A DNA stretch of 17,931 nt from Candidatus Naiadarchaeum limnaeum. GTDB taxonomy: Archaea; Undinarchaeota; Undinarchaeia; Undinarchaeales; Naiadarchaeaceae. Made by a program: the position numbers and the translations under genes. Below are positions 1,978 to 16,584 of the stretch, in pieces; positions within the stretch are counted from its first letter, which is position 1; each line of letters begins with the position of its first letter. Location of the stretch: the NCBI GenBank assembly GCA_014189685.1, contig DVAB01000021.1, positions 1 to 17,931 of the forward strand, read 5' to 3'. The notes beneath the pieces are model-generated. The model was not told where the DNA came from. It did not search any database and worked only from the letters and a program-made list of their open reading frames with translations.

Positions 1978-3276
1978 TTAAACTGCCGGCATCCCAATTC
2001 TCGCAAATAAAAAGTTAATCATATTTGCAAAAAGCCCTTCTCCCGTATCTTCGCCTTTCTTTTTTCCGCTCGGCGCCAAAAACCATCCGCTCTCCTCTTC
2101 TTTTTCCTGCTCTTTCATTTTTTTAGCGCGGGTTTTTATTTTTTTAAGTACGTTTTTCAAATTCTTTTTTGTGTTTGGAATCCCACAAGTATTTCCAACT
2201 CCGACAACAATTATTTGGCTTCCTTTCTTAGTATCTAAAACTCTTTCCTTCACGAGCTCTGTTGCACCAGCAATTGAATCAGCAACTTCAGTTGGCATTG
2301 GGCTTATTGCCTCAAAAGGCGACATTTTAATTGCGATCGCATCCAAAGGAATATTATATTTAACAGCAATCTCCTCAATCTTTGCCCTTTCTATCCCAAC
2401 TCCACCTATTGCAACACCAATTCCCTCTGCCACAGAACCTGTTTTTTCTCCCTCTAATTTTTGTGCAGCATCAATTGTGATTATTTTTCCAAGTTTTCTA
2501 TTTCTCTTTGACAGTTTTAGTACAGCATCTCCCAGTTCTCCTAATCTTCCACCCGGTCCGCGGGCTTTAACAAAAGTAATATTGTGGCCCCACATTTTTT
2601 TGCTTGCAGAAATTACATCCTCTGCAATCTCTTTCCCTTCTTTATCAAGCAAAGAAGCAATTACAAGTGGTCCTGCTCCATCCCCAATTGCTTCTCCATT
2701 GAGGAAAGCGTTCAATCCTTTTTCCTCAGCCTCAACCAATTTTTCAATTATCGGAAGCTGCATCTGGAATATCATTGCGAACTGGAAGTTTTTGAATTTT
2801 TTCATCAGTTCTGCCCAGTGTCTTACGATTTTTGCAATCATGTTAATTGTAACAGCAGCCTGCAATCCCATATAAACATCCATTACCTCTTCGCTGTTGG
2901 CTTTTGGAGCAATTTCATGCGCTGCTTTCTTAAAGCGGTCTTCTGTTCCCCTGACTAAATGCTCTAATTTTTTCATAATTCCAAACGGATCCAGATCAAC
3001 AGGCGGTATCATAAAGAAATCCATGAAATGATCGATTCTCTTTTTTGCATCCTTGCTCTTTCCGCCGTGTTTGCTTGAAAATTTGAAAACAGATTTTCTT
3101 CCATCCGCAGCTATTTTCTCAAGCTTTTGCGCACTTGCCTCAATTTTAGCAAGAGCTTGCCACAAGTAAATTCTTGGGCCGAGAAATATGAATACCATAA
3201 ACATTATAAAATACAGTATATTCAGTATTGAGCCCCCAGCGTCCTTTGACCCGAAAAGTTGTGCCAAATCTATCAT
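1978..3276 (-). CDS. DUF1512 family archaeal membrane-anchored protein
   Basis: A conserved archaeal protein of unknown function, placed in DUF1512 by recall of family sequence style. The 432 residues begin with one clear transmembrane helix at about 17-38 (ILNILYFIMFMVFIFLG). A lysine-rich, largely soluble body follows, so it is probably an inner-leaflet protein with a cytoplasmic domain. Visible conserved-looking stretches are FFMIPPVDLDPFGIMKKLEH (about 88-107), GDGAGPLVIASLL, GPGGRLGELGDAVLKL, and IIVVGVGNTCGIPNTKKNL near the C-terminus. The tail is charged (KKMKEQEKEEE). Its ATG overlaps the stop of the TrmJ-like gene by four bases (ATGA), indicating translational coupling. It is the last gene of the ACT-trmJ-DUF1512 unit. 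No catalytic motif was recognised. Confidence 0.78.
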   Translation of the reverse strand: MIDLAQLFGSKDAGGSILNILYFIMFMVFIFLGPRIYLWQALAKIEASAQKLEKIAADGRKSVFKFSSKHGGKSKDAKKRIDHFMDFFMIPPVDLDPFGIMKKLEHLVRGTEDRFKKAAHEIAPKANSEEVMDVYMGLQAAVTINMIAKIVRHWAELMKKFKNFQFAMIFQMQLPIIEKLVEAEEKGLNAFLNGEAIGDGAGPLVIASLLDKEGKEIAEDVISASKKMWGHNITFVKARGPGGRLGELGDAVLKLSKRNRKLGKIITIDAAQKLEGEKTGSVAEGIGVAIGGVGIERAKIEEIAVKYNIPLDAIAIKMSPFEAISPMPTEVADSIAGATELVKERVLDTKKGSQIIVVGVGNTCGIPNTKKNLKNVLKKIKTRAKKMKEQEKEEESGWFLAPSGKKKGEDTGEGLFANMINFLFARIGMPAV

Positions 3277-10647: not shown

Positions 10648-11622
10648 TTAGTCTAAATCGTCCTTGCTCACAAGCAAAACCAAATCGCTCAATTCTTTTT
10701 CCCAGTACTTTTTTGCGTTTTTTGCAAATCCGCTCATACTAATTATTATAACAGGCGTTCTTCTTGAAACAGCTACCATTCCAATTGAAGAAACATCATC
10801 CTGGGAAACAGGCTTTTTTCCAGAATCTAAAATTCTAACCATATAAGTTTGCTTTCCAAGCGGGGTTGGAACTTTTACTTCCAATTCAACTTCTTTCCCA
10901 GTCTTCAAAAGTTTCTCGCTTTCAATATCTATGTTGTTTTTTTCAAGCCAATGGTAAACTATGTTTCTGAAATCATTTATTGGAGCTGCTTCAACTTCCC
11001 TGATTTTTTCTTCAACTGTCTTTCTTTTTCTTCCGCGCTTTCTTTCAACTTTTACCGGAATTGGCTTTACAGTTTTTTCAACTCTCTCAACTTTTTGCTC
11101 TGCTAATTGCTCAATTATTTTCTGATCCTGAGTTTTTGTTTCTTGAACAGCTTTTGCGACCGCGCCTCCAAATCTTACAGTTAATTTTTTCATTGCAATC
11201 TCCCTTGCTTTGGTTTCATGCATATCAGGAGTATACCAGCATCTTAGGGGCGTTCCTCTGAAATCAAGCACAAATCCGCCAACTAAATCCTCTAAATTTG
11301 AAAGTACAGTTGCTTCCTCAGGCCTGATTTCAAATTCTCCAACCACATTTTCCTTCATAAGTTTCTGCAAAAGTTCCTTGTCTTGCGGAGTCAACATGTC
11401 TGCAATTTTTTTCTGCAAAACAGGCAATTGATCAGGATAAAAATAATACTTCATACTTCCTAATTTTCTTTTTGAGCGCATTAACTTGTTCTGGCTTACA
11501 GCATCAACCAGAACAGCAGTTACAATTATTGAATTGGCCCCAAGTTTTTGGGCTATATCAACTGGAGTTGATGGGCCGTATCTTCTAATATGGTTTAAAA
11601 TTTCCTCGTCAATCCTTGCCAT
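10648..11622 (-). CDS. Winged-helix protein with AT-hook-like linker and possible degenerate nuclease-fold domain
   Basis: A 324-residue protein I cannot name. Residues 1-70 look like a winged helix (IDEEILNHIRRYGPSTPVDI, then AQKLGANSIIVTAVL). Residues 78-150 form a second small domain (TPQDKELLQKLM, VGGFVLDFRGTPLRCWYTP). Residues 155-212 are charged and contain the basic cluster KVERKRGRKRKT (191-202), resembling an AT-hook. Residues 217-324 (VELEVKVPTPLGKQTYMVRI, then PVIIISMSGFAKNAKKYWEK and LVLLVSKDDL) recall the Mrr-type PD-(D/E)XK fold, but the QxK/ExK active-site element appears replaced by MVRILD, so activity is doubtful. DNA binding is likely. The start at ATG 11622 sits about 29 bases from a TATA box; a TTG three codons upstream is less likely. 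Confidence 0.65.
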   Translation of the reverse strand: MARIDEEILNHIRRYGPSTPVDIAQKLGANSIIVTAVLVDAVSQNKLMRSKRKLGSMKYYFYPDQLPVLQKKIADMLTPQDKELLQKLMKENVVGEFEIRPEEATVLSNLEDLVGGFVLDFRGTPLRCWYTPDMHETKAREIAMKKLTVRFGGAVAKAVQETKTQDQKIIEQLAEQKVERVEKTVKPIPVKVERKRGRKRKTVEEKIREVEAAPINDFRNIVYHWLEKNNIDIESEKLLKTGKEVELEVKVPTPLGKQTYMVRILDSGKKPVSQDDVSSIGMVAVSRRTPVIIISMSGFAKNAKKYWEKELSDLVLLVSKDDLD

Positions 11623-11643
11623 TCCATCCAAATGTAGTGTAAT

Positions 11644-11677: not shown

Positions 11678-12274
11678 ATGAAATTTAGCCTTGCAGAAGA
11701 GCTGCGCAGAAAATCAGCGCATTTTTTCGGATTAGCTTGGGTTCTGGTTTCTTATTATATAACTTTGAAGCAGACAATTTTGCTTCTCGGGCTTTTCTTC
11801 TTTCTCACACTAGTAAACGCCTCACTTCACAAATATTTAGTTCGCATTCCTCTGCTTGGAAATTTTGTTGATTTTTTGCATTCAATGGCGCGCGCAGAGG
11901 AAAGACATGCAAAAATTTATTATGGGGCAGTTTATTTTTTTGGAAGCTTGATTGTTGTTCTTTTTGCAACTCAATCTTTGCCAATTTTTAGAGGAGCTGC
12001 TATTGTTTTAATTATTGGAGACGCTTTCTCTGCAATAATTGGAAAAGCATTTGGAAAAACTGAGCTTCCTTACAATCCTTTCAAAAGCGTTGAAGGGAGC
12101 ATTGCAGGGCTAATTGCAGCGAGCATTGCTGCGGCTTTTGTTCTTCCAATACCTCTTGCAATTTTTGCAGCTTTTATAGGAATGTTCATTGAATCAATTC
12201 CCTGGGATTTAAATGACAATTTAACAATGCCAATTGGGGTTGGGTTTTTCCTCTGGATTTTAACATCTTTATGA
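11678..12274 (+). CDS. CTP-dependent lipid kinase family membrane protein (SEC59/DGK1/VTE5-like)
   Basis: A 198-residue polytopic membrane protein of the dolichol kinase / phytol kinase / yeast DGK1 superfamily, which transfers phosphate from CTP to a lipid alcohol. Family signatures are ELRRKSAHFFGL near the N-terminus (8-19), GDAFSAIIGKAFGK (114-127), NPFKSVEGSIAGL (133-145), and IESIPWDLNDNLTMPIGVG (171-189). About six hydrophobic helices fill the rest. The likely substrate in archaea is a polyprenol/dolichol used for protein glycosylation, or another isoprenoid alcohol; this is inferred. The start ATG 11678 is leaderless relative to the TATA element near 11651. The rhomboid gene follows after eight bases, so the two are probably one transcript. 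Confidence 0.85.
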   Translation: MKFSLAEELRRKSAHFFGLAWVLVSYYITLKQTILLLGLFFFLTLVNASLHKYLVRIPLLGNFVDFLHSMARAEERHAKIYYGAVYFFGSLIVVLFATQSLPIFRGAAIVLIIGDAFSAIIGKAFGKTELPYNPFKSVEGSIAGLIAASIAAAFVLPIPLAIFAAFIGMFIESIPWDLNDNLTMPIGVGFFLWILTSL

Positions 12275-12282
12275 TTTAAAAA

Positions 12283-12999
12283 ATGGTAATTGGATATGAA
12301 ACTGAAGATCCGCTTTTCGAAAGCGGATTTAAATGGATATCAATAAAATTAGCTGCAGTAATCACATTTATTTTTGTTTTGCAATTAATTTATCCGCCGC
12401 TAACAGATATGTTTTCAGAAATTCCTTCTAGAATTTTTTTTGAGCCTTGGAGAATTATTACTCATATTTTTTTGCATTCAACAACTAATATAACTCATAT
12501 TTTTTACAACATGTTCGGACTTGTTTTATTTGGAGCGATTTTAGAAAAAATAGTTGGCTGGCGAAGATTTTTAACAATATTTTTTATTGCAGGAATAGTT
12601 GCATCTATTGGTTCAATTGTTGTTTCATTCTTGCAGGGAACCCAAAACATTCCAAGTATCGGAGCAAGCGGTGCAATTTTTGGAGTAATAGGGGCTTTAG
12701 CAGTTCTGCGGCCGCGAATGATAGTTTATGTTTTATACTTTCCAATGCCTATGATAGCAGCTGCATTTTTCTGGGCCCTAATTGATATTATAGGTTTGTT
12801 TAATCCATTTGATTACATTAACAATTCTGCGCATTTATTTGGAATGTTTTTTGGAATTGTTTTTGCTTTAGCGATAAGGCAGAGATTTGGAGAACCATTT
12901 TTTGTAAAAAAGAGAAGCGCAGATATTCATATTAAAGAGGAAGAATTCGAGGATTGGGAAGAGAGATGGATGGGGCGGAAAAAGAAAAAGCGCGAATAG
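12283..12999 (+). CDS. Rhomboid family intramembrane serine protease
   Basis: A 238-residue polytopic membrane protein with rhomboid catalytic features: HSTTNITHIFYNMFGL (65-80, holding the HxxxN motif, H72 and N76), the nucleophile in IGASGAIFGVIGA (126-138, Ser129), and the catalytic His in NSAHLFGMFFGI (181-192, His184). Six to seven TM helices are visible. The cytoplasmic C-terminus is highly charged (EEEFEDWEERWMGRKKKKRE). Rhomboids cleave TM helices of membrane proteins. The gene follows the lipid kinase by eight bases. Sixty bases downstream lies an operon with a membrane-tethered transcription factor, a possible but unproven substrate. The TAG stop forms part of an inverted repeat that precedes that operon's promoter. 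Confidence 0.93.
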   Translation: MVIGYETEDPLFESGFKWISIKLAAVITFIFVLQLIYPPLTDMFSEIPSRIFFEPWRIITHIFLHSTTNITHIFYNMFGLVLFGAILEKIVGWRRFLTIFFIAGIVASIGSIVVSFLQGTQNIPSIGASGAIFGVIGALAVLRPRMIVYVLYFPMPMIAAAFFWALIDIIGLFNPFDYINNSAHLFGMFFGIVFALAIRQRFGEPFFVKKRSADIHIKEEEFEDWEERWMGRKKKKRE

Positions 13000-13021
13000 C
13001 TACGAATGGATTCGTAGTTAT
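12996..13021. promoter_or_regulatory. Inverted repeat: candidate operator (or hairpin)
   Basis: CTACGAATGGATTCGTAG (13000-13017) is a perfect 8-base inverted repeat with a two-base centre. Adding the flanks ATAG and TTAT extends the pairing to 12 bases a side, with one G-T mismatch. The left arm includes the rhomboid stop codon. The right arm ends a few bases before a TATA-like element at about 13027-13040. As DNA it would suit a dimeric winged-helix regulator; as RNA it could form a hairpin at the end of the rhomboid mRNA. Confidence 0.6.
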
Positions 13022-13024
13022 CAT

Positions 13025-13040
13025 ATATTATTTAAAATAA
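13025..13040 (+). promoter_or_regulatory. TATA box of the lipoprotein/regulator operon
   Basis: TATTATTTAAAATAA centres about 26 bases before the ATG at 13060, predicting a leaderless mRNA. It lies directly after the inverted repeat, so a protein bound to the repeat would contact the BRE/TATA zone. Confidence 0.5.
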
Positions 13041-13059
13041 GCAAAATACCTTTTTAACC

Positions 13060-14343
13060 ATGGAAAAATCAAGAATCTTAATTGGAATTGGAATTTTAAT
13101 CGCAGTAGTTTTAGTTAGTGGATGCACTCAAAAATATAATGGTTCAGAAAAAGTGCAGGTTCAAGAAAAAGCGCAAATTTCTAGTGGAATTCTTGAACTT
13201 CAAAAGACATATGATTATTTTTATAAAAACGAAGGTCCGAATATGCAAATTTTTGAATTTACTGCCATTAAAGAAGGCATAGAAGTTTTAAACTTTGTTT
13301 CAGAAAAAGGTAATAAAACCTTCTTCCTTGTTGAAATTGTTTCTACTGATGGTATCTCAAAAAATATTACATATTATGTAGATTCTCATCAACGTATAAC
13401 CAATATAACTATGGGTTTAGACGATACCTTAAGTATTGGATTAGTGGCGATGCCTGCTCGGGAAGGCGAATCGGGCGTTGGGCGTTGGAATATTCAAGAA
13501 AGTACGCCTATAGAAAAAGATATTGTTGTAAAATCTAATCTAGTGGCTGATTTATGTACGGCAGAGAAACTTCAGTATAGACTGGAAAAAGAGTGCAGGG
13601 ATGCATTTAAAGTTGCGGGTGATCCAATTGTTTGTGACCAAATGGAAAAATACGAAGATGATTGCTATAAATATTACGCAGAAAAATTTTCTGATATAAA
13701 ACTTTGTGATAAAATAAATTATTTAGCGGATAAAGATGCATGCTATGAAAATATAGCTGTAAAAGAGAAAGATAAATCATTGTGCGCTGAAATTGACAAT
13801 TCTAACAATTATCCTTATGATACGGGCGCAGATTGTTACTACAAAATAGCGGTTTTGCAAAACGATGGAATTATATGTGATCTTATTAAAGAAAAATCTG
13901 CTCCGTACGACCGTTATAATTTTAATATAAAACATAAAAAAGCGCAGTGTTATTATGAAGTGGCTTTAAATACAAATAATCCTGCTTTGTGTAATAAATT
14001 GGATGAAGTCGCTTCTATAGATGTTGGCAACTATTACGAATCTAAAAGTTTCTGCTATTTCAAAATTGCGTTAAAAACAAAAGATAATTCACTGTGCGAA
14101 AATGTAAAAACTCTTACTGTCACAGAGATTACACCAGATCCAAACGCTCCACCTTGTCGTTCAGGTCCAACAGCTGGTACTTGTGGTACTCCTGTAATTA
14201 AATTTAATTGGACTATGAGCAATGAAATGTGCCGCAGTGAGCTCAAAAATATACATTTGGACTTAACTTGTCCTCTAGAGGCGCCTAATTGCTCTTACGA
14301 TACCTACAATATGCTCATAAATCCAAATCTAAAATATCGCTGA
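13060..14343 (+). CDS. Secreted lipoprotein with paired-cysteine repeats
   Basis: A 427-residue extracytoplasmic protein I cannot assign to a named family. It has a lipoprotein signal: KSR, then hydrophobic ILIGIGILIAVVLV and lipobox LVSGC with Cys22 as the lipidation site. Residues 40-160 form a beta-rich domain without repeats. Residues 179-346 hold six units of consensus C[Y/R]xxxA(x5-7)[D/N]xxxC[D/E/N]x[I/L/M/V]. Cys pairs are 179/192, 202/216, 228/242, 259/273, 297/311 and 332/346. A further Cys-rich tail (366-411) contains four to five more Cys. The many even-spaced Cys suggest disulfide-stabilised helical repeats outside the cell. The next gene, a membrane-bound regulator, follows after ten bases, so this may be a surface sensor or ligand-binding partner; that is inference. 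Confidence 0.75.
   Translation: MEKSRILIGIGILIAVVLVSGCTQKYNGSEKVQVQEKAQISSGILELQKTYDYFYKNEGPNMQIFEFTAIKEGIEVLNFVSEKGNKTFFLVEIVSTDGISKNITYYVDSHQRITNITMGLDDTLSIGLVAMPAREGESGVGRWNIQESTPIEKDIVVKSNLVADLCTAEKLQYRLEKECRDAFKVAGDPIVCDQMEKYEDDCYKYYAEKFSDIKLCDKINYLADKDACYENIAVKEKDKSLCAEIDNSNNYPYDTGADCYYKIAVLQNDGIICDLIKEKSAPYDRYNFNIKHKKAQCYYEVALNTNNPALCNKLDEVASIDVGNYYESKSFCYFKIALKTKDNSLCENVKTLTVTEITPDPNAPPCRSGPTAGTCGTPVIKFNWTMSNEMCRSELKNIHLDLTCPLEAPNCSYDTYNMLINPNLKYR
13594..14097 (+). repeat. Six paired-cysteine protein repeats
   Basis: Six degenerate units, each with two cysteines 13 or 14 residues apart, are encoded here within the lipoprotein gene. Examples are CYENIAVKEKDKSLC, CYYKIAVLQNDGIIC and CYFKIALKTKDNSLC. 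Spacing between units varies (10 to 24 residues from the second Cys to the next unit's first Cys), and the DNA has diverged, so these are old protein repeats and not recent tandem duplications. Confidence 0.8.
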
Positions 14344-14353
14344 TGTATTAAAA

Positions 14354-15157
14354 ATGGAAAACTCAAAAGACAAAAAACTAATAATAACTCCTCTGGATGA
14401 AAACACTAAAAAAATTAGCCAAGTCCTTGCAAATGATACCTGCAGAAAAATTCTTGATGTATTAGCTGAAGATCCTTTAAGCTCCTCTCAAATTTCTGAA
14501 AAATTAAATCTTCCTTTAACAACAGCTGATTACAATATAAAAAAATTGAGCGAAGTTGGATTAATCACAGTCCATCACAAAAAATGGAGCCCAAAGGGGA
14601 AAAAAGTAAATTACTACGCGCCGGCTGAGAAATTTATTTTAATTGCGCCGAAAGCTCCGACTGCGCAGATTTTCAAGACATTGAAAAGTTTAATCCCTGT
14701 TCTTGCTGTTTTAGCACTTATCTCAGGAGCACTTGAATTCATATTTGCAGGATTCAAACGCTCATTTAGCGCAAAAGCCTCATTTTTGGCAGAGACTGCA
14801 GTATCACAAGTAGCCACAGCACCTCGCACAGGAAATATTTCTGGAAATGTCACAACAACTGTTTCTACAATAACAAAAGCTGGAACTCCGCCGCTTGATG
14901 GTGTTGCTGGGGGGGCTGGAGGAGTGGCAGCTAATGTAGCAAATATTCCTTCAAATGTAACAAGTGGAGCTGCTGGCTCTACAATAGCAAAGGCCGGCTC
15001 TGTGCCAGTGGCAGGAGCTCCTGCGCCCATAGAAACAGTTTCATACGCTACATACAAAACACCATTTTTGCTCCAGCATCCGGGATTAATAATATTTATA
15101 ATTGGCGTGGCAGTAATTCTGCTCTACGTGATTTACAAGTATAAATATGAAAAATAA
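14354..15157 (+). CDS. Membrane-tethered winged-helix transcriptional regulator
   Basis: A 267-residue protein. Residues about 15-95 form an ArsR-type winged helix (ISQVLANDTCRKILDVLAED, LSSSQISEKLNLPLTTADYN as recognition region, then VGLITVHHKKWSPKGKKVNY as the wing). Residues 112-134 are a first TM helix. Residues 140-240 are low-complexity Ala/Gly/Ser/Thr with three N-glycosylation sequons (NIS 161, NVT 165, NVT 201). Residues 244-261 are a second TM helix, with a short basic tail KYKYEK. Topology: DNA-binding domain inside, glycosylatable loop outside. It would have to act while membrane-bound or be released by proteolysis; a rhomboid gene lies upstream. It starts ten bases after the lipoprotein gene and overlaps the next gene by 11 bases. 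It may bind the inverted repeat at 12996-13021. Confidence 0.82.
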   Translation: MENSKDKKLIITPLDENTKKISQVLANDTCRKILDVLAEDPLSSSQISEKLNLPLTTADYNIKKLSEVGLITVHHKKWSPKGKKVNYYAPAEKFILIAPKAPTAQIFKTLKSLIPVLAVLALISGALEFIFAGFKRSFSAKASFLAETAVSQVATAPRTGNISGNVTTTVSTITKAGTPPLDGVAGGAGGVAANVANIPSNVTSGAAGSTIAKAGSVPVAGAPAPIETVSYATYKTPFLLQHPGLIIFIIGVAVILLYVIYKYKYEK

Positions 15158-15689
15158 AATTTTGGTTGGAATCGGAATTTTAATCGCAACGGTTTTTATA
15201 ATCGTAGTCTTCTATAATAAGCCAAAAGGGGTTTATTCTATAAGAGGAGATATGTGCTATTCGGATTCTGATTGTGCTTGTGATTATAAAAATCCAGATC
15301 AATGTGGCAAAACCGGCCAGTCTTTGGTTTGTATAAAAAATAAGTGTTATATTGGATTTAAAAATGAAACTGAATCATGCGCTTATATAGATAATGAATT
15401 GGTCTGTGAGGCTCAAGCTATTACTAACATCGGTGAACTTTTCAAATTAAAAGGCGAGGAATCAAGAACTGTGAAAGTTGAACTAACAGGGTTTATTAAA
15501 GAGGGTTGCATGGATTTCTTTAATATAGAGGACTCTACTGGCACAATTCAAGTTAGAGGAGTTGATGAAAAATTTTTGGATAAAAAAGTTATGATAAAAG
15601 GAAATTTTACTTATTCACCGATAAGATGTTTAGCTCTGTGCGTTTGCGATCCGCACGTTGTAGTTGAAAGTATAAGTTTTGCGAAATAA
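15147..15689 (+). CDS. Anchored cysteine-rich protein with OB-fold-like C-terminal domain
   Basis: A 180-residue extracytoplasmic protein, not recognised as a named family. Residues 5-23 are an N-terminal anchor (ILVGIGILIATVFIIVVFY) without lipobox. Residues 37-87 are cysteine-rich (Cys 37, 43, 45, 53, 62, 67, 78, 87; beginning CYSDSDCACD). Residues about 105-178 show an OB-fold-like strand pattern (TVKVELTGFIKEGCMDFFNI, then EDSTGTIQVRGVDEKF and KKVMIKGNFTYSP), with four further Cys (121, 161, 165, 167). OB folds usually bind nucleic acids or oligosaccharides; here the domain would lie outside the membrane. The start overlaps the regulator gene by 11 bases. The anchor-coding DNA is nearly identical to that of the lipoprotein gene at 13082-13104. 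No Shine-Dalgarno is seen. Confidence 0.7.
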   Translation: MKNKILVGIGILIATVFIIVVFYNKPKGVYSIRGDMCYSDSDCACDYKNPDQCGKTGQSLVCIKNKCYIGFKNETESCAYIDNELVCEAQAITNIGELFKLKGEESRTVKVELTGFIKEGCMDFFNIEDSTGTIQVRGVDEKFLDKKVMIKGNFTYSPIRCLALCVCDPHVVVESISFAK

Positions 15690-15794: not shown

Positions 15795-16304
15795 ATGGGT
15801 TTCTACAAATATTTGGCAGAGGCTTGGAAAAAACCTTCTAAAGAGGTTCAGCGAAAGCGCTACATACAATGGAGAAAAGAAAATCGTTTTGTTAAAATTG
15901 AAAAGCCAACCAGAATTGATCGCGCACGTTCATTGGGATATAAGGCAAAGCCAGGATTTGTTGTTGTTCGTGCGCGAATAGGAAAAGGCGGAAGAAAACG
16001 CCCACGAGCAATTGCTGCAAGAAAGCCTACAAAGCTTGGGGTTTATTTCAATCCAGACAAAAACTTGCAAAGAATTTCAGAAGAAAGAGTGCAGAGAAAA
16101 TACCCAAACTTGGAAGTTTTGAATTCATATTGGGTTGGGGATGATGCGCACCACGAATTCTATGAAATTGTTTTAGTCGACCCAAATCATCCGCAAATCC
16201 GTTCGGATAAAGATATTAATTGGATTTGCGCGCCGCAGAATAGGCGCAGGGTCTACAGAGGACTTACATCGGCCGGAAAAAAATCGCGCGGCTTAAGAAA
16301 GTAA
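15795..16304 (+). CDS. rpl15e: 50S ribosomal protein L15e (eL15), short C-terminus
   Basis: Archaeal/eukaryotic large-subunit ribosomal protein. The start MGFYKYLAEAWKKPSKEVQR is the standard N-terminus. RIDRARSLGYKAKPGFVVVR, RKYPNLEVLNSYWVGDD, VDPNHPQIRSD, INWICAPQNRRRVYRGLTSA and GKKSRGLRK follow in family order. The product is 169 residues, while archaeal eL15 is usually about 190. The shortfall is the basic C-terminal tail, which here stops at GLRK without sign of a frameshift. Neighbours downstream (Rpp30, Pop5, proteasome alpha) match the known archaeal superoperon. It has its own TATA element and a long leader (see the separate entry). Confidence 0.95.
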   Translation: MGFYKYLAEAWKKPSKEVQRKRYIQWRKENRFVKIEKPTRIDRARSLGYKAKPGFVVVRARIGKGGRKRPRAIAARKPTKLGVYFNPDKNLQRISEERVQRKYPNLEVLNSYWVGDDAHHEFYEIVLVDPNHPQIRSDKDINWICAPQNRRRVYRGLTSAGKKSRGLRK

Positions 16305-16332: not shown

Positions 16333-16584
16333 ATGAACAACCGTGGTTATGTTTTAAAGCTGGCAGCTTTTGCAATTGCTTTTATTTTAATTGGCTATGG
16401 ATACTACGGATTATTTTACATTCCCCAAAATAGCGGGTTTGGTGGGTCGAAATGTATTCTAGAGAATTTTCAGGCGCAACAAACTTATAAAACAGGCGAG
16501 CCTTGCGTGTACTCTTTTGAATCATTGGCTGTTGGAATAATTTTAGTAATTTTAATAATTGTTATATGGTGGAAATTCGATTAA
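16333..16584 (+). CDS. Small two-TM protein of unknown function
   Basis: An 83-residue membrane protein, unrecognised. Residues about 8-30 (LKLAAFAIAFILIGYGYYGLF) and 65-80 (LAVGIILVILIIVIWW) are TM helices. The 35-residue loop between them contains two cysteines (41 and 58) that could form a disulfide if the loop is extracytoplasmic. The N-terminus MNNRGY is short and basic. The ATG at 16333 is about 25 bases after a TTTAAA element at 16306-16311, so a separate leaderless transcript is possible. The Rpp30 start follows the stop by four bases. It interrupts the usual eL15-Rpp30 adjacency; a role in RNA processing is not indicated by its sequence. Confidence 0.65.
   Translation: MNNRGYVLKLAAFAIAFILIGYGYYGLFYIPQNSGFGGSKCILENFQAQQTYKTGEPCVYSFESLAVGIILVILIIVIWWKFD

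Follow-up and report, generated by a model that had tools for sequence, protein, structure and literature searches.

An Undinarchaeota operon for a membrane-integrated winged-helix regulator and two predicted surface proteins, with a rhomboid protease gene as a probably unrelated neighbor

We propose, at a probability of roughly 0.55, that the operon at positions 13060-15689 encodes a one-component transmembrane transcription regulator (TTR) together with two extracytoplasmic proteins, maybe its sensors, with the winged helix working from the membrane and the upstream rhomboid protease gene being a mere neighbor. The window analyzed here, 17,931 nucleotides long, is a whole contig (DVAB01000021.1) of the 0.98-Mb, 98% complete genome of Candidatus Naiadarchaeum limnaeum, phylum Undinarchaeota. 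The features that the argument draws on are the following:

10648-11631, minus strand: Mrr-like winged helix-turn-helix (wHTH) protein (Pfam Mrr_cat E 0.002, below the cut-off), left border of a variable interval
11678-12274, plus strand: dolichol-kinase/CTP-transferase-like membrane protein (CTP_transf_1 1e-6), probable transcription partner of the rhomboid
12283-12999, plus strand: rhomboid intramembrane serine protease (Pfam Rhomboid, PF01694, 1.2e-29; GASG with Ser129, His184, H72xxxN76)
13000-13017, no strand assigned: perfect 8-bp inverted repeat, CTACGAAT-GG-ATTCGTAG, a possible operon operator or rhomboid mRNA 3' hairpin
13031-13040, plus strand: TATA-like box TTTAAAATAA, at -29 relative to the lipoprotein ATG, a candidate leaderless-type promoter of the operon
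13060-14343, plus strand: lipoprotein (lipobox LVSGC, Cys22; 19 Cys; orphan N-terminal region; Cys repeats at ~166-366)
13074-13112, plus strand: leader segment in the lipoprotein gene, 82% identical to 15158-15196
14354-15157, plus strand: membrane-integrated winged-helix regulator (HTH_20 4.9e-13; wHTH ~20-100, first transmembrane helix TM1 ~113-131, second TM2 ~243-261)
15147-15689, plus strand: anchored Cys-rich protein, here the OB-like gene (12 Cys; possible C-terminal OB-type beta-barrel)
15158-15196, plus strand: second leader copy, in the OB-like gene, duplicate of 13074-13112
15795-16304, plus strand: ribosomal protein L15e (Pfam 4.3e-72), right border of the variable interval

The anatomy described in the original prediction was confirmed at every coordinate: a rhomboid with Ser129 and His184 precedes the lipoprotein gene by 60 bases on the same strand, a 10-base gap separates the lipoprotein and winged-helix genes, and the latter overlaps the gene of the anchored Cys-rich protein by 11 bases. 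The kinase-like gene, the rhomboid and the operon together occupy a variable interval, bounded by the Mrr and L15e genes, which are divergent. The same divergent arrangement recurs in ARS1358 (G003), where it encloses two other, unrelated genes, and the L15e-RNaseP30-Pop5 block is kept in other Undinarchaeota. Between L15e and RNase P p30 lies the gene of a small two-TM protein (16333-16584), a position apparently kept in a second genome (G001, L155 7229-7480). A recent foreign origin of the operon was also considered, and composition gives no sign of it, the G+C content of its genes (32.8 to 39.4%) not being set apart from that of the contig (36.6%).

The claim that a winged-helix factor is held by two TM helices stands. 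The predicted layout runs from a cytoplasmic winged helix through TM1 (N-terminus inside), a 111-residue outer loop rich in Ser, Thr, Ala, Gly and Asn, and TM2 to a short basic inner tail. By profile, the closest solved DNA-binding domains are the ArsR-type winged helices PH1932 (PDB 1uly, E 8.8e-11) and 2p4w (E 6.2e-7), the match being restricted to the winged helix. On sequence grounds the regulator belongs with other membrane-integrated winged-helix proteins of archaea in a family that has no name yet, which a ten-member profile detected, at E<=1e-15, in 52 of the 297 archaeal genomes searched. Family members share a winged helix, a TM helix soon after it, a low-complexity loop, a C-terminal TM helix and a short basic tail; the two-TM layout is seen in most aligned members, with the first helix weak by hydropathy in some. 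Genomes with the family reach 3 Mb in size, and several consist of a single contig, so that tests could be made in one of these other archaea rather than in the uncultured Undinarchaeota.

The immediate neighbors of 19 relatives of the regulator were mapped. In one locus (L161), the gene of a secreted Cys protein overlaps that of the regulator relative by 4 bases, and in another (L163), the overlap, also of 4 bases, is with a DUF4349 lipoprotein gene (3.2e-67), followed by alpha-2-macroglobulin domains. In a third (L159, 123-2741) a winged helix-TM protein is fused to a large beta-propeller (PF09826, 1.3e-167) beyond the TM helix, a membrane regulator that carries its own outer domain. A longer protein of ~510 residues is found, in addition, in three genomes of a single genus, and a chagasin domain was identified in one of these proteins (L146, 4.2e-15). 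Most relatives adjoin housekeeping genes (TruA, a CBS protein, adenylate kinase, an ABC exporter) and others have a SIMPL-domain gene nearby; only a minority have surface-protein partners. The original view that the regulator shares an operon with two anchored proteins of the extracytoplasmic side is supported at the locus itself, and among its relatives extracytoplasmic proteins are at times found as operon partners or as fused domains.

Two side observations were made on these loci. Protease inhibitors are linked to regulator relatives twice, as the fused chagasin (I42) of L146 and as the alpha-2-macroglobulin in the operon of L163 (1322-4797). In three loci of one archaeal family (L022, L023 and L024), a divergent gene of the DUF1512 type lies ~1 kb away from the regulator relative; the window has a homologue of that gene too (1978-3276), at a distance of 11 kb from the regulator.

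The first gene of the operon encodes a protein whose signal carries the lipobox cysteine of archaeal lipoproteins (Cys22 in LVSGC). Its Cys repeats follow the pattern LCxxI...D.CYxxIA...D over residues ~166-366 and recur in ten further archaeal genomes, there in extracytoplasmic proteins; the N-terminal region had no relatives in the genomes searched. The extracytoplasmic protein family to which the lipoprotein belongs, with repeats of the form LCEKIxDxxxKDxCYxxIAxxxxD, was seen in L166 and L167 (G038) and also in L168, L170, L171, L172 and L173, with 16 places in G038. No Pfam family was found for the lipoprotein of the window. An AlphaFold model gives confident helical hairpins within ~199-244 and 285-348, consistent with a helical repeat; the repeats had no match among solved structures by sequence, a fold search with the Cys-repeat model returned generic helical-repeat matches only, none at E<=0.001, and a literature search on the repeat yielded nothing relevant.

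The last gene of the operon had been described as encoding an anchored Cys-rich, OB-like protein. The anchor and the 12 cysteines hold up, and the OB assignment stays weak: the C-terminal part alone reached the tRNA_anti-codon OB family at E 0.09, the NCBIfam stress_OB_fold model gave E 0.13, and a single-sequence structure model shows about five strands at low confidence (mean pLDDT 45), too poor for a structure search. The whole protein matched no Pfam family, and no relative was found in 80 other archaeal genomes. The leader DNA of this gene and that of the lipoprotein gene are 82% identical over 39 nt, and the genome has exactly two copies of their 23-nt core. One membrane anchor was probably copied from the other by local duplication, and the shared leader suggests that the two flanking genes evolved together in a block. 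We infer that the two surface proteins, which had no full-length relatives in the genomes searched, may act as sensors; the linkage of lipoprotein, regulator and OB-like gene is seen in one genome only.

These data bear on a reading in which the targets of the regulator are housekeeping genes or genes far away, no sensing complex exists, and its place between surface genes is an accident of a variable insertion interval. It agrees with the different gene content of the Mrr-L15e interval in a relative (ARS1358), with the highly variable neighbors of the regulator and with the orphan nature of the surface genes. We nevertheless consider it unlikely, given the 11-base overlap and 10-base spacing within the operon, the leader common to both flanking genes, with the joint evolution that it suggests, and the surface partners that turn up again, separately encoded in L161 and L163 and fused in L146 and L159.

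The TATA-like box at 13031-13040 lies 29 bases before the lipoprotein ATG and downstream of the inverted repeat at 13000-13017, whereas no such box was found at a comparable distance before the rhomboid start. The operon has a promoter-like element of its own, and a single unit of rhomboid and operon is not supported. We also considered the palindrome as the site of a genome-wide regulon and ruled this out: no intact copy was found elsewhere in the genome (one copy has 1 mismatch), and palindromes of such size are at chance level in the whole window (3 seen against 3.7 expected). The palindrome is statistically ordinary, and autoregulation is therefore put forward as a proposal only.

If the operon is a one-component system, the two surface proteins, or an envelope state reported by them, would act on the outer loop/TM pair of the regulator, and the signal would alter DNA binding by the winged helix while the regulator stays in the membrane. 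The likeliest first target would be the promoter of the operon itself, where the inverted repeat may be the binding site. The orientation of the protein is best read from the family, in which 75 sequons (N-x-S/T) were counted among 2081 loop residues and 3 among 3153 wHTH residues (36 versus 1 per 1000, with several loci counted twice), and the reversed motif occurs ~26 times in the loops, about a third as often as the sequon. From this bias and that of charge across the family, we therefore place the loop outside and the winged helix inside, with TM1 in an N-in/C-out (type II) orientation. The window regulator's own loop has three sequons and two reversed motifs, which prove nothing alone.

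Should the regulator ever be released, a site-2-type protease would fit this topology better than a rhomboid. One could picture, by analogy with regulated intramembrane proteolysis elsewhere, that the outer loop is trimmed first and that a site-2-type protease then cuts TM1. Apart from the orientation of TM1, this would be in keeping with the M50 proteases found in all six Undinarchaeota genomes, with three M50 peptidase loci in the source genome, and with the regulator relatives fused to or beside protease inhibitors (chagasin, alpha-2-macroglobulin). However, M50 proteases are near-universal (14 of 14 control genomes), the second TM helix would have to be dealt with, and the comparable archaeal regulators ArnR and ArnR1 are regarded as membrane-bound activators (PMC6396743), so that we hold such a release to be improbable. 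Helices with a cytosolic N-terminus are also the substrates of SPP-type enzymes (PMC7366577).

The rhomboid itself has the sequence hallmarks of its protease family (profile match, GxSG serine, TM6 histidine and HxxxN); residues G127-A-S129-G, H184, H72 and N76 are invariant in an alignment of four Undinarchaeota proteins. It starts 8 bases after the dolichol-kinase-like gene, and this pair is directly adjacent also in UBA543, where the order Mrr-kinase-rhomboid is that of the window and where, likewise, homologues of HemK, OBG, IMPase, TrmJ, DUF1512 and L10e lie beyond Mrr. UBA543, whose contig stops ~380 bases past the rhomboid, is the sole relative that keeps the local order, and there the rhomboid pairs with the upstream lipid-kinase-like gene, against the predicted linkage to the regulator. 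Our comparison set within the phylum comprised five other Undinarchaeota genomes (among them ARS1358, UBA55, UBA543 and 'Candidatus Undinarchaeales archaeon'), only 75 to 86% complete; four of them carry the rhomboid, all without the regulator, and the regulator, lipoprotein and OB-like genes were found in none of the five. A second, distant rhomboid-like gene (L078, G000:C48:5981-6511, 30% identity) is present in the source genome and has counterparts in four other Undinarchaeota.

Conserved adjacency of the four genes, which the original prediction had proposed as a check, was looked for at other archaeal rhomboid and regulator loci and not found; with the pairing seen in UBA543, the outcomes named beforehand as speaking against that prediction have for the most part been observed. 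The operon is absent from eight further archaeal rhomboid loci examined: the neighbors differ in ARS1358, SRR5007147.bin71 and UBA55 (one genus), in an Aenigmatarchaeota genome, in two Nanoarchaeota and in Dive96, and tblastn found none of the operon genes at the rhomboid locus of Methanosarcinaceae UBA470. Conversely, no rhomboid was detected, by similarity or by motif, near the 19 mapped relatives of the regulator.

Rhomboids generally cut near the outer face of the membrane and favor an orientation opposite to N-in/C-out, with exceptions. With TM1 N-in, a cut near the outer face would therefore leave the winged helix membrane-bound, and TM1 does not have, by the family topology, the orientation needed for rhomboid release of a cytoplasmic factor. 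The idea that the rhomboid cuts the regulator in TM1 (residues 112-134) and that the freed winged helix controls its own operon, attractive for an intact rhomboid gene on the same strand 60 bases away and for a TM1 site (ALISGAL at 121) that fits the minimal rhomboid consensus, as do sites in TM2 and the loop and most plant membrane-bound factors (PMC9237531), is very improbable in view of the missing linkage at every other archaeal rhomboid or regulator locus examined, the operon's separate promoter-like element, the four Undinarchaeota that have the rhomboid without the regulator, and the orientation of TM1. Because of linkage, promoter and topology, we exclude the rhomboid from the system, of which it had been thought a part; it is probably a separate, older unit with the lipid-kinase-like gene, a neighbor of the operon and not its activating protease. 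Treating it as a probably unrelated neighbor spares a misdirected experiment.

A broader reading, which we regard as tentative and rather doubtful, is that the unnamed, widespread two-TM winged-helix family senses the envelope from within the membrane, with an outer partner that changes between lineages (a fused beta-propeller or chagasin, an operon with DUF4349 and alpha-2-macroglobulin, a SIMPL neighbor, or a Cys-repeat lipoprotein with an OB-like protein), the Undinarchaeota operon being an archaeal counterpart of bacterial co-component systems. Little is known of how archaea, and small DPANN cells above all, perceive their surroundings, and, if true, conserved membrane-held regulators with interchangeable surface partners would offer a handle on this.

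The original prediction knew of no described archaeal system with this layout, which holds only in part, since archaea are known to have one-component regulators bound to the membrane, as ArnR/ArnR1 (PMC6396743) and in a survey that reports TTRs from 367 of 404 archaeal species (PMC10269533). As in the TTRs described there, the regulator of the window combines a DNA-binding domain, predicted to be cytoplasmic, with at least one TM region in one protein, without a separate kinase; it differs in that its family is not singled out in the passages of the survey consulted and in that two surface-protein genes flank its gene. ArnR and ArnR1 of Sulfolobus acidocaldarius likewise have an N-terminal HTH and two TM helices and are membrane-bound one-component regulators of surface structures (PMC6396743). 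In ArnR, however, the two C-terminal TM helices are preceded by a HAMP-like and a sensor domain, whereas the window regulator, which lacks that arrangement, has TM1 next after its winged helix and 111 loop residues between TM1 and TM2, which by description sets it apart from ArnR.

The bacterial co-component systems ToxR, TcpP and VtrA, as presented in the same survey (PMC10269533), also join a membrane-integrated DNA-binding regulator to a co-encoded membrane partner, and both genes flanking the regulator in the window would encode such an anchored extracytoplasmic partner. The partners of ToxR, TcpP and VtrA are often lipocalin-like, whereas here one is a lipoprotein with Cys repeats and the other a Cys-rich protein with a possible OB fold, and the likeness seen is one of gene layout; as to a lipocalin-like partner or an outer-domain heterodimer, the OB-like protein model is poor (mean pLDDT 45) and the regulator loop is of low complexity. 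The haloarchaeal Rho1 and Rho2 are, like the rhomboid of the window, archaeal rhomboids with no natural substrate assigned; they were studied for motility, adhesion and shape, and no transcription-factor substrate is mentioned (PMC11985538). Set against these systems, the operon is a lineage-specific case of an already known regulator type, with an unnamed family behind it.
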